Below are positions 13,450 through 16,746 of a stretch of DNA of 64,000 nt, piece after piece. Below the pieces are notes generated by a model that saw only the letters and a program-made list of their open reading frames with translations, was not told the origin of the DNA and did not search any database. This DNA is from Flavobacteriaceae bacterium (GTDB lineage Bacteria > Bacteroidota > Bacteroidia > Flavobacteriales > Flavobacteriaceae). The first letter of the stretch is position 1. The number at the start of each line of letters is the position of its first letter. The DNA is taken from contig JAQWSK010000016.1 in assembly GCA_029243245.1 (NCBI GenBank), positions 124,001 through 188,000 of the forward strand, given 5' to 3'. The position numbers and the translations under genes were made by a program.

Positions 13450-13524
13450 CGGGGTGTAGCGTAGCCCGGTCATCGCGCCTGCTTTGGGAGCAGGAGGTCG
13501 CAGGTTCGAATCCTGCCACCCCGA
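13450..13524 (+). tRNA. tRNA-Pro (anticodon TGG)
   Basis: A 75-base cloverleaf. The acceptor stem is CGGGGTG paired with CACCCCG, with discriminator A at 13524. The anticodon stem is CCTGC/GCAGG with loop TTTGGGA, so the anticodon is TGG. The T arm is GCAGG TTCGAAT CCTGC. CCA is not encoded. The C1-G72 pair is usual for bacterial tRNA-Pro. A rho-independent terminator follows at 13553. Confidence 0.97.
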
Positions 13525-13552
13525 CAAATTATATACATAACTTACTATAAAT

Positions 13553-13722: not shown

Positions 13723-13822
13723 AAAAAACTGTTTAAGATTTATAGTCTGTTTTTTAATAATTTTTCTTGTTGAAACTTAACTTATATTGATTACATTAAC
13801 TTTATTAACTAAATATCCTATA

Positions 13823-14968
13823 ATGATAAATAAAGTGTTTGTTTCAGGGTGTTTTGATCTTCTACACACTGGGCATTTAGAATTCTTAGAAAATGCTAGT
13901 AATTATGGTGATTTATATGTTGGAATTGGATCAGATGAAACTGTAAAACAACTCAAAGGCGACTACCCTGTGATGAATGAAAATGAAAGAAAATATATGG
14001 TCGAATCACTTAAATTTGTTAGCAAATGTAAAATCAATTCTGGAAATGGAATTATTGATTTTTTGAATGAAATTTCAACTATAAAACCAGAAATTTTTAT
14101 CGTTAATAAAGATGGAGACCATAAAGAAAAGTTCAATCTGTGTAAAAAACTCAATATTGAATACAAAGTTTTTGAACGTAAATCAAAAGCTTTTTTTAAA
14201 AAAAGATCAACTACTAAAATAAATAAAATCTCTAGAATTCCATTTAGAATCGATATTGCGGGTGGATGGTTAGACCAATTGAGTGTAAATAATTTATGTT
14301 CAGGATCAGTTATAACTATATCAATTGAACCTAATAAAAAATTTAATCAGAAAAGCGGAATGGCAACTAGCACAAGGAAAGCAGCTAAAGAATTGTGGGG
14401 AAACCAGCTTCCGATTGGAAATAAAGAAAAATTAGCCAAAATTTTATTTAGCTATGATAATTTCCCAGTAAAAAAAGAAATTTCTGGGTCTCAAGATGCT
14501 ATTGGTATTGTATATCCAGGTGTTAACAAATTGTTTTATGAAAATGGATACTGGCCGAAAAAAATTGATACTGTTTTGAAAGAAAAAACATTAAATTTTA
14601 TTGAAAAAAATATTTATCTGGTTCCGCTTGGACCGAGAAAAGACGATTATGATGTTTATAAAAATTCAAACATTAATAACGCAAATTGCTCAAAACTTTC
14701 TAAAGCATCTGAAAAAACGTGGAGAGGAATTATTAATAATAATTTAAAAGATTTCGGTGAAGGTATGCTAGAAGCTTTTCAAGCTCAATTAGAACTATTC
14801 CCAAATATGATTGATAATGAAATTATTAAAAACATTGAAAAATATAAAAAAAATAGTTTGGGATATAAATTATCAGGAGCTGGCGGAGGTGGTTATATAA
14901 TAATTGTAAGTAAAACTCAAGTAAAAGATTCATTTAAGATAAAAATTAGAAGAAAAAATAATTTCTAA
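13823..14968 (+). CDS. Cytidylyltransferase-GHMP kinase fusion (predicted sugar-1-kinase / nucleotidylyltransferase)
   Basis: A 381-residue two-domain protein. Residues 1-135 are a HIGH-type cytidylyltransferase domain: GCFDLLHTGH at 9-18 with the HxGH motif, and RSTTKI at 128-133 as the second signature. Residues 138-381 are a GHMP-family sugar kinase domain: RIPFRIDIAGGWLD at 138-151, a degenerate ATP loop SGMATST at 178-184, SGSQDAIG at 221-228 as in HddA- and Fkp-type kinases, and SGAGGGGY at 351-358. I start it at the ATG at 13823; the longer frame begins with TTG at 13787. The stop overlaps the start of the permease gene (TAATG). From the neighbours I infer activation of L-fucose or a similar sugar to a 1-phosphate and then a nucleotide sugar. 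The substrate and the nucleotide are not proven. Confidence 0.85.
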   Translation: MINKVFVSGCFDLLHTGHLEFLENASNYGDLYVGIGSDETVKQLKGDYPVMNENERKYMVESLKFVSKCKINSGNGIIDFLNEISTIKPEIFIVNKDGDHKEKFNLCKKLNIEYKVFERKSKAFFKKRSTTKINKISRIPFRIDIAGGWLDQLSVNNLCSGSVITISIEPNKKFNQKSGMATSTRKAAKELWGNQLPIGNKEKLAKILFSYDNFPVKKEISGSQDAIGIVYPGVNKLFYENGYWPKKIDTVLKEKTLNFIEKNIYLVPLGPRKDDYDVYKNSNINNANCSKLSKASEKTWRGIINNNLKDFGEGMLEAFQAQLELFPNMIDNEIIKNIEKYKKNSLGYKLSGAGGGGYIIIVSKTQVKDSFKIKIRRKNNF

Positions 14969-16272
14969 TGAAAAATAATTCTAAAATTGTGTCAAATGAA
15001 TATTTGATACCCTTCATTTTGGTTACATCGCTTTTTGCCCTTTGGGGATTTGCAAACTCAGTAACTGATCCAATGGTTAATGCTTTTAAAAAAGTTTTAG
15101 AACTATCAAATTCAGAAGCCGCATGGATTCAAATGTCATTTTATGGAGGTTATTTTTGCATGGCATTACCAGCATCATTATTTATGAGGAGATACTCATA
15201 TAAGACAGGTATATTAATTGGATTAACTTTATATGCATTTGGAGCATTATTATTTTATCCAGCAGCAATTACAGAACAATTTTGGTTTTTTTGCTTTGGA
15301 CTTTACATACTTACTTTTGGATTGGCTTTTTTAGAAACTGCAGCTAATCCTTATGCTCTTTCGATGGGGGCTAGAGAGACAGCCACTCAGCGATTAAATC
15401 TGGCTCAAGCTTTTAATTCAATTGGCTTAATTGCTGGTCTTTTTGTAGCTCAACAGTTTGTTTTAAAAAAATTGCAGTCAGATAATATTACTAATTTTAA
15501 TGCTTTAGATGAAGCTTCTAAAATGCAAATTAAAATTGTAGATTTAGTAGTTATCAGAGACCCATATGTAATTTTAGGACTAGTTGTTTTAGCAATTATT
15601 GTTTTATTTATAACAATTAAAATGCCTGAATCTAAAGACAAGACATCAAATGCTCTTATTGGAAATACTTTTAAAAAACTTGCAAAAAATGTTAGATATA
15701 GAAATGGTGTGTTTTCTCAAATATTATATGTTGGTGCACAAATAATGTGCTGGACCTACATATATCAATATGCTGAAGGAAAAGGAATAGATATGGCTAC
15801 AGCAGGCTACTATCAAATGATTGCTTTTATTTTTTTTGCAGTTGGACGTGTTTTTGGAATTTATTTACTAAGATTTATAAATTCTGGGACCTTACTAATG
15901 TTTTTTTCCTTTTTTTCTATTTTCTGTTGTTTAGGAATCATTTTATTTAAAGGAATTTTAGGGCTTTATTGTTTAGTTTGTGTTTCATTTTTTATGTCTT
16001 TAATGTTTCCAACAATATATGGGATAGCTTTAGGTGATTTAAATGATGAAGAAAGTAAAATTGGATCAGCTGGTTTGGTGATGGCAATTGTAGGTGGAGC
16101 TCTAATGCCTAAATTACAAGCAATTATTATAGATGTTGGAGGTAATGATGTTAATGATATTACAATTTTTGGAGTTTCTGAAATAAATTTGTCATTCACT
16201 CTACCATTAATTTGTTTTTTATTTATTGCGCATTTTGGATATAAAATTGGAAATTTAAGCCTAAAAGAATGA
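14968..16272 (+). CDS. fucP: L-fucose:H+ symporter family permease
   Basis: A 434-residue, 12-helix major facilitator protein of the FucP group. Matching segments include FALWGFANSVTDPMVNAFKK in the first helix and loop, WIQMSFYGGYF in helix 2, FLETAANPYAL in helix 4, and MFPTIYGIALG late in the protein. FucP imports L-fucose, and relatives import other sugars, with protons across the inner membrane. The gene overlaps the preceding fusion kinase by 1 base and the following mutarotase by 4 bases (ATGA), so the three form one translationally coupled operon. Exact sugar specificity is inferred from family only. Confidence 0.9.
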   Translation: MKNNSKIVSNEYLIPFILVTSLFALWGFANSVTDPMVNAFKKVLELSNSEAAWIQMSFYGGYFCMALPASLFMRRYSYKTGILIGLTLYAFGALLFYPAAITEQFWFFCFGLYILTFGLAFLETAANPYALSMGARETATQRLNLAQAFNSIGLIAGLFVAQQFVLKKLQSDNITNFNALDEASKMQIKIVDLVVIRDPYVILGLVVLAIIVLFITIKMPESKDKTSNALIGNTFKKLAKNVRYRNGVFSQILYVGAQIMCWTYIYQYAEGKGIDMATAGYYQMIAFIFFAVGRVFGIYLLRFINSGTLLMFFSFFSIFCCLGIILFKGILGLYCLVCVSFFMSLMFPTIYGIALGDLNDEESKIGSAGLVMAIVGGALMPKLQAIIIDVGGNDVNDITIFGVSEINLSFTLPLICFLFIAHFGYKIGNLSLKE

Positions 16273-16571
16273 AAAGATATTGCTATACCCTAAATTTAAA
16301 AAATGATAAAAAATTAATTAAAAAATATATTGAACACCATCAAAATGTATGGCCTGAGGTTTTAGAAAGTTTTAAAAGAAATGGTGTGATAAATGCTGAA
16401 ATTTATAATGTTTCAAACAGGCTGTTTTTCTTAATTGATACATTCGATTCTTTCTCCGATGAAAAAATAAAAAAATACAATTTAGAAGATCCAATTATTC
16501 AAAAATGGGAAAAACTGATGTGGACGTTTCAAGAACCATTACCTTTTAGAAAAAAAATGAAAAATGGATAA
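16269..16571 (+). CDS. L-rhamnose/L-fucose mutarotase family protein (RhaM-like)
   Basis: A 100-residue dimeric alpha-beta barrel type protein of the L-rhamnose mutarotase family (formerly DUF718). The catalytic region EHHQNVWPEVLESFKRNGV and the end MWTFQEPLPF are typical. It speeds conversion between alpha and beta anomers of a free sugar. Coupled by ATGA overlap to the permease gene, it probably supplies the anomer that the fused GHMP kinase phosphorylates at C1. A true FucU fold is longer and different in sequence, so RhaM-like is the better label. Confidence 0.88.
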   Translation: MKRYCYTLNLKNDKKLIKKYIEHHQNVWPEVLESFKRNGVINAEIYNVSNRLFFLIDTFDSFSDEKIKKYNLEDPIIQKWEKLMWTFQEPLPFRKKMKNG

Positions 16572-16628: not shown

Positions 16629-16702
16629 CGGGATGTGGCGCAGTCTGGTAGCGCACACGCATGGGGTGCGTGGGGTCGCAGGTTCAAATCCTGTCATCCC
16701 GA
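16629..16702 (+). tRNA. tRNA-Pro (anticodon GGG)
   Basis: A 74-base cloverleaf. The acceptor stem is CGGGATG paired with CATCCCG, discriminator A at 16702. The anticodon stem is CACGC/GCGTG with loop ATGGGGT, giving anticodon GGG. The T arm is GCAGG TTCAAAT CCTGT. CCA is not encoded. Its 3' half is very similar to that of the tRNA-Pro(TGG) gene at 13450. Confidence 0.96.
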
Positions 16703-16746
16703 CTACAATTAATTTATTAAGATATTTGTTCTTATAAATAAAAATA

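Follow-up and report, generated by a model that had tools for sequence, protein, structure and literature searches.

Two-step activation of L-fucose by a single chain is known from the Fkp/FKGP proteins (Bacteroides fragilis BfFKP, TxFKP and Arabidopsis FKGP), chains of ~950 aa in which a PF07959 pyrophosphorylase with a β-helix is N-terminal and a GHMP fucokinase is C-terminal (PMC11982464). The sugar site of this kinase is a conserved Trp/Asp/Gln/Asp set: in Fkp, W599 stacks on C4-C5-C6 of fucose, D601 contacts O3/O4, Q761 contacts O4, D762 is the general base, and R592 is placed near O1 (PMC11982464). In a late-2025 survey the known Fkps go back to a single fusion event, with two characterised bacterial members, and the tree of bifunctional proteins was restricted to 745-1745 aa (PMC12732313). 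The GHMP heptose kinases HddA and WcbL belong to the same kinase superfamily without a fused nucleotidyltransferase, and the HIGH-fold nucleotidyltransferases HldE/HldC (RfaE domain II) and GCT/TagD carry HxGH and RSTT-type motifs. In HldE, a HIGH-type domain is likewise fused with a kinase, but that kinase is of the PfkB type and comes first. Finally, fucose utilisation operons contain the symporter FucP and mutarotases of the RhaM/FucU kind.

We analysed a window of 64,000 nucleotides from a Flavobacteriaceae bacterium (contig JAQWSK010000016.1), in which an earlier note had described three genes with 1- and 4-base overlaps. The three coupled open reading frames were verified and lie on one strand (Table 1), and the junctions agree with that description: the fusion gene and fucP share one base, with the fucP start within TAATG, and fucP and rhaM share the four bases ATGA, with the rhaM start inside. 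The length of the fusion is counted from its ATG, and an in-frame TTG at 13787 is an alternative start that would add 12 aa. No Bacteroidetes promoter consensus was found just upstream of the operon, and within the window the pattern did not occur above chance. FucP lies well over the cut-off of the L-fucose symporter equivalog TIGR00885, like the FucP of fucose utilisation operons. The RhaM-family protein scores 77 bits against PF05336 (cut-off 23.4), a family that it shares with the mutarotases of those operons, but its 22.9 bits against the L-rhamnose mutarotase equivalog TIGR02625 are well short of the cut-off of 99.6, and it is distinguished by its linkage to, or in some homologues fusion with, a kinase and nucleotidyltransferase.

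Table 1. Genes, domains and motifs of the three-gene operon (window positions).
Feature	Position	Strand	Basis
Bifunctional fusion, HIGH-superfamily nucleotidyltransferase + GHMP sugar kinase, 381 aa	13823..14968	+	
N-terminal nucleotidyltransferase domain, ~residues 1-133	13823..14221	+	CTP_transf_like 7.9e-13; TIGR02199 68 bits, below cut-off; Foldseek
HTGH (HxGH) nucleotidyltransferase motif, residues 15-18	13865..13876	+	H15, H18 identical in 80/80 proteins
RSTT nucleotidyltransferase motif, residues 128-131	14204..14215	+	Alignment of 80 proteins
C-terminal GHMP kinase domain, ~residues 138-381	14234..14965	+	Fkp kinase top PDB profile match, E 7.1e-13; Foldseek 4usk, 9iip
GHMP motif 1 FRIDIAGGWLDQ, sugar-binding, residues 141-152	14243..14278	+	R142, W149, D151 = Fkp R592, W599, D601
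SGMATSTR phosphate-binding loop, residues 178-185	14354..14377	+	S183 = Fkp S719 by motif position
SGSQD, residues 221-225	14483..14497	+	Q224, D225 = Fkp Q761, general base D762, by motif
GAGGGGY GHMP motif 3, residues 352-358	14876..14896	+	Alignment
FucP, L-fucose:H+ symporter, 434 aa	14968..16272	+	TIGR00885 490.6 bits, cut-off 280.4
RhaM-family mutarotase, probably for L-fucose, 100 aa	16269..16571	+	PF05336 1.5e-21; below TIGR02625 cut-off; family-wide linkage

The first gene was read in the note as one 381-residue chain with nucleotidyltransferase motifs followed by GHMP kinase motifs, and all of these (HTGH, RSTT, FRIDIAGGWLDQ, SGMATSTR, SGSQD and GAGGGGY) were located. With an HxGH motif, an (R)STT motif and a Rossmann-like domain, the N-terminal part qualifies as a HIGH-superfamily nucleotidyltransferase. 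Pfam matched the chain to CTP_transf_like (49 bits, cut-off 21) and, just under the cut-off, to GHMP_kinases_C (20.7 vs. 21); these were its only matches, with neither a PF07959 fucose pyrophosphorylase domain nor a PfkB-type kinase domain, and no model in Pfam or NCBIfam describes the whole fusion. The best NCBIfam domain match, TIGR02199 (ADP-heptose), reached 68.1 bits against a cut-off of 181.5, and TIGR01518 (CDP-glycerol) gave 37 bits on the nucleotidyltransferase domain. When an AlphaFold2 model of the fusion (pLDDT 88.4, pTM 0.65) was searched with Foldseek, this domain matched 3glv, HldC (5xf2, 1.1e-7) and GCT (1coz/2b7l); 3elb was a further PDB match. The fusion thus has a HIGH-type domain of ~133 aa where Fkp has its pyrophosphorylase, and is far shorter. 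In domain order the two are alike, since the pyrophosphorylase is N-terminal in Fkp too (PMC11982464), and the reversed order that the note had claimed for Fkp has to be dropped. The same is true of the "degenerate" ATP loop, which turns out to be a conserved family motif, SGM[AS][TS]S[TS]R, different from the loop of Fkp and with an invariant central serine, S183.

For the kinase domain, a profile search of the PDB gave Bacteroides Fkp as the best match (7.1e-13), followed by a heptose kinase (3.5e-7), while Foldseek placed the heptokinase WcbL on top (6.6e-10) and Fkp after it (6.6e-9). Because structurally the kinase is about as close to WcbL as to Fkp, the modelled fold alone leaves fucose versus heptose undecided, and it is the residues and the gene neighbours that decide. 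A profile alignment with 5yys maps Fkp R592, W599 and D601 onto R142, W149 and D151 of the window protein, and the G-x-QD motif after the loop maps G759, Q761 and D762 onto G222, Q224 and D225. All six residues are identical in 80/80 aligned fusions; Fkp T602 is replaced by Gln in the fusion family. A second Fkp (L149/L150) likewise has the Trp, within AGGWTD. In contrast, the four heptose kinases or heptose-kinase-like proteins checked (3k85, 4n3o and the genomic relatives L023 and L029) have Gly at the Trp149 position within a motif 1 of GGGSD or GGGTD, and none of the 80 fusions, with their invariant Trp, has the HddA-type motif GG[GS]xD. A kinase/nucleotidyltransferase for heptose, like HddA/HldC or HldE, which the WcbL and HldC structural matches and the rank of TIGR02199 would favor, is therefore highly improbable, and we rejected it on this Trp/Gly difference, on the cut-offs (TIGR02199 is missed by a wide margin, and the kinase is GHMP, not PfkB) and on the neighbours, where fucose genes recur and no heptose gene stands out among the recurrent clusters.

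Full-length homologues of the fusion, with 41-56% identity and the same two-domain layout, occur in several phyla, so the fusion is more than a chance joining. Single-sequence scans of genome contigs and viral contigs gave no match, but a later alignment-based scan of GTDB genomes yielded at least 521 confirmed fusion candidates, of which the best 80 loci are from Bacteroidota, Chloroflexota (Anaerolineae), Ignavibacteriota, Verrucomicrobiota, Armatimonadota and Chlorobiota. A plasmid search returned only nucleotidyltransferase-domain matches. Within the family of the window, 12/399 genomes (its own counted) from eight genera have the fusion, and a phylum-wide sample of 395 genomes added three further full-length copies. 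Closer to the window, a search of its 60 nearest relatives gave single-domain matches only, and the full-length fusion is absent from six same-genus genomes (68-86% complete). Together with the two tRNA-Pro genes that flank the operon (window 13450-13525 and 16629-16703; TGG and GGG anticodons), this absence suggests that the operon may be an inserted block. Aligned over 384 columns, 80 fusions show few gaps, and in both domains the catalytic motifs vary little or not at all. Of these fusions, the window protein has diverged furthest, with changes at 9/99 near-invariant columns and an end branch of 1.35, and such a long branch makes its placement in the tree unsure. As it keeps every mapped catalytic residue of both domains, the protein is likely functional. 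In another Flavobacteriaceae-like genome (L050:9206-10357), the fusion gene is split by a TGA into two frames, either a pseudogene or a sequence error.

What surrounds the homologues was counted at 92 loci, which include a few duplicates or near-duplicates such as L062/L097 and L095/L104, using markers within 3 kb of the fusion. The note had suggested collecting homologues to see whether fucP and mutarotase genes co-occur: FucP was found at 13/92 loci and a RhaM-family gene at 23/92, never on the opposite strand. Six of those 23 loci (L065, L070, L072, L080, L092 and L096) have RhaM within the fusion chain itself, which is then 580-610 aa long. The RhaM match in these six lies in the extra N-terminal part, giving the order mutarotase-nucleotidyltransferase-kinase, and Pfam verified it in both chains submitted (L080, L072). 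Other recurrent neighbours are GH29-like fucosidases (7/92), FucI (5/92), fuconate-pathway genes (fuconolactonase/FAH, 4-5/92), Gmd together with Fcl (4/92) and a relative of GDP-mannose 3,5-epimerase (8/92; the one tested matches plant GME at 2.4e-78). In total, 39/92 loci have one or more fucose or GDP-fucose markers within this distance. The other 53 have none, and among them are all 11 of the other Flavobacteriaceae-like copies; fucP-rhaM lies ~5 kb off in two of these 11. At a few loci the fucose markers lie solely beyond 3 kb. Homologues in heptose or polyol gene sets, which the note had named as counting against a fucose role, were not seen among the recurrent neighbour clusters, where fucose genes recur instead. 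Given these neighbours and the conserved sugar site, the fusion is very probably a kinase and nucleotidyltransferase acting on a fucose-type sugar.

The epimerase raises the question of whether the main substrate might be a fucose look-alike, L-galactose or D-arabinose, for instance to form GDP-L-galactose, with the adjacent epimerase converting this to and from GDP-D-mannose. Its gene adjoins the fusion in several Chloroflexota and at other loci, and in L084 (11130-12113) the plant GME-like gene is directly 3' of the fusion and 5' of fucI, an arrangement seen in several Anaerolineae. FucP also transports both of these sugars. D-arabinose is, moreover, accepted by Fkp (PMC12732313). We nonetheless consider a look-alike substrate improbable, as the Gmd/Fcl, FucI, GH29 and fuconate-pathway neighbours indicate a 6-deoxy sugar and the invariant Trp is the residue that in Fkp stacks on C4-C5-C6 of fucose.

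Whole genomes point the same way as the neighbours. In the family of the window, gmd is present in 12/12 fusion genomes against a base rate of 82/165 near-complete family genomes, and over-cut-off fucP in 12/12 against 66/200. The estimated chance of such a result is ~2e-4 for gmd and 2e-6 for fucP when genomes are taken as independent, and ~4e-3 and 1e-4 when genera are counted. Across all 37 fusion genomes, gmd is found in 35, fucP in 29 and fucI in 17, and the eight without fucP are all Chloroflexota. An over-cut-off PF07959 domain was found in 0/37, the genome of the window included; this is consistent with the fusion having replaced Fkp, but as weak evidence, because Fkp is rare to begin with (1/198 in the phylum sample).

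Breakdown is another conceivable fate of the sugar: many loci adjoin FucI, FucU, class II aldolase or fuconolactonase/FAH genes, and in such degradation operons the enzyme might serve L-fucose catabolism, or its regulation, rather than glycan synthesis. We regard this as a quite improbable role, considering the four loci with Gmd and Fcl as neighbours and the two active sites, which both look competent. The genome of the window (assembly ~90% complete) was checked for FucI and Amidohydro_2 proteins: FucI was not found, and the single Amidohydro_2 protein is of a membrane-anchored type and no evident fuconolactonase. The same genome has gmd and fcl adjoining in a glycosyltransferase cluster (L155), so that salvage for glycans is the simplest use of imported fucose there.

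Taking these observations together, we propose, with a probability of roughly 0.58, that the operon serves L-fucose salvage through import, anomer exchange, 1-phosphorylation and nucleotidylation, with GDP-L-fucose as the likeliest product. FucP would import L-fucose, and the RhaM-family protein would interconvert its anomers, providing the form used by the kinase (β in Fkp). The C-terminal GHMP domain would then use ATP to make L-fucose-1-phosphate, onto which the N-terminal HIGH-type domain would transfer a nucleotide. GDP-L-fucose made in this way would add to the pool for surface glycans that Gmd and Fcl also supply. Much of this agrees with the interpretation in the earlier note, whose compact Fkp analogue acting with FucP and a mutarotase is borne out by homologues that recur with fucP, rhaM and fucose genes and by the conserved fucose-site residues of Fkp. 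Its CDP-sugar product fares less well: CDP is possible but no longer leading.

For a fucose-type substrate, the nucleotide is probably GDP, because the sole nucleotide-specific neighbours (gmd, fcl and GDP-mannose 3,5-epimerase) are GDP-sugar genes. Against GDP stand the nearest characterised relatives of the nucleotidyltransferase domain (GCT, HldC/HldE), which are CTP or ATP users, and no close precedent for GTP use by a HIGH-type domain is known to us. With the same substrate and chemistry, the product could instead be CDP-L-fucose or ADP-L-fucose, neither of which has a precedent as a fucosylation donor, and the best matches of the domain (TIGR02199, TIGR01518, 3glv, 5xf2, 1coz and 3elb) are indeed to CTP or ATP enzymes. 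Given a fucose-type sugar, CDP or ADP retains a minor share of the probability; as an account of the whole operon such a product is unlikely, since the co-localised nucleotide-sugar genes are of the GDP type, nearly all fusion genomes carry gmd, and GDP-fucose is the donor for all known fucosyltransferases (PMC12732313). We likewise doubt that a widespread second class of fucokinase/HIGH-type enzymes, some with a mutarotase, makes CDP- or ADP-L-fucose, which would imply matching fucosyltransferases.

With a kinase related to that of Fkp and an unrelated nucleotidyltransferase, the fusion would mean that bifunctional enzymes for fucose activation arose a second time, independently. At 381 aa, it falls outside the size-limited tree of the survey, in the text of which "cytidyl" does not occur (PMC12732313). 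We found no paper that treats CDP-fucose or describes a cytidylyltransferase-GHMP fusion acting on fucose; most subscription journals were outside the search, and an unseen report is possible. One candidate precedent, PMC11300592, was rejected, its cytidyltransferase belonging to a lipid cluster. If GDP-L-fucose salvage is correct, bacteria have put fucose salvage on a single chain at least twice, the second time using a nucleotidyltransferase unrelated to the first, and the capacity is present in many genomes scored as lacking it. As GDP-fucose is expensive to produce, an enzyme not half as large as Fkp is possibly a useful catalyst.

Two variants of the system were also seen. One genome has, beside the main type, a divergent second fusion (L064:8858-9994, 42% identity) with GSGGGY in motif 3, accompanied by an epimerase-like protein, RhaM and a symporter-like gene; it possibly acts on another sugar. 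Chloroflexota have a second, split system (L084:7144-8837, L133:13699-14481) with a stand-alone kinase that contains AGGWIDQPF and has a GCGGGY end. In L084 the gene for this kinase overlaps one for two tandem nucleotidyltransferase domains, and an Fcl/GME-like dehydrogenase and LacI-type regulators are encoded nearby.
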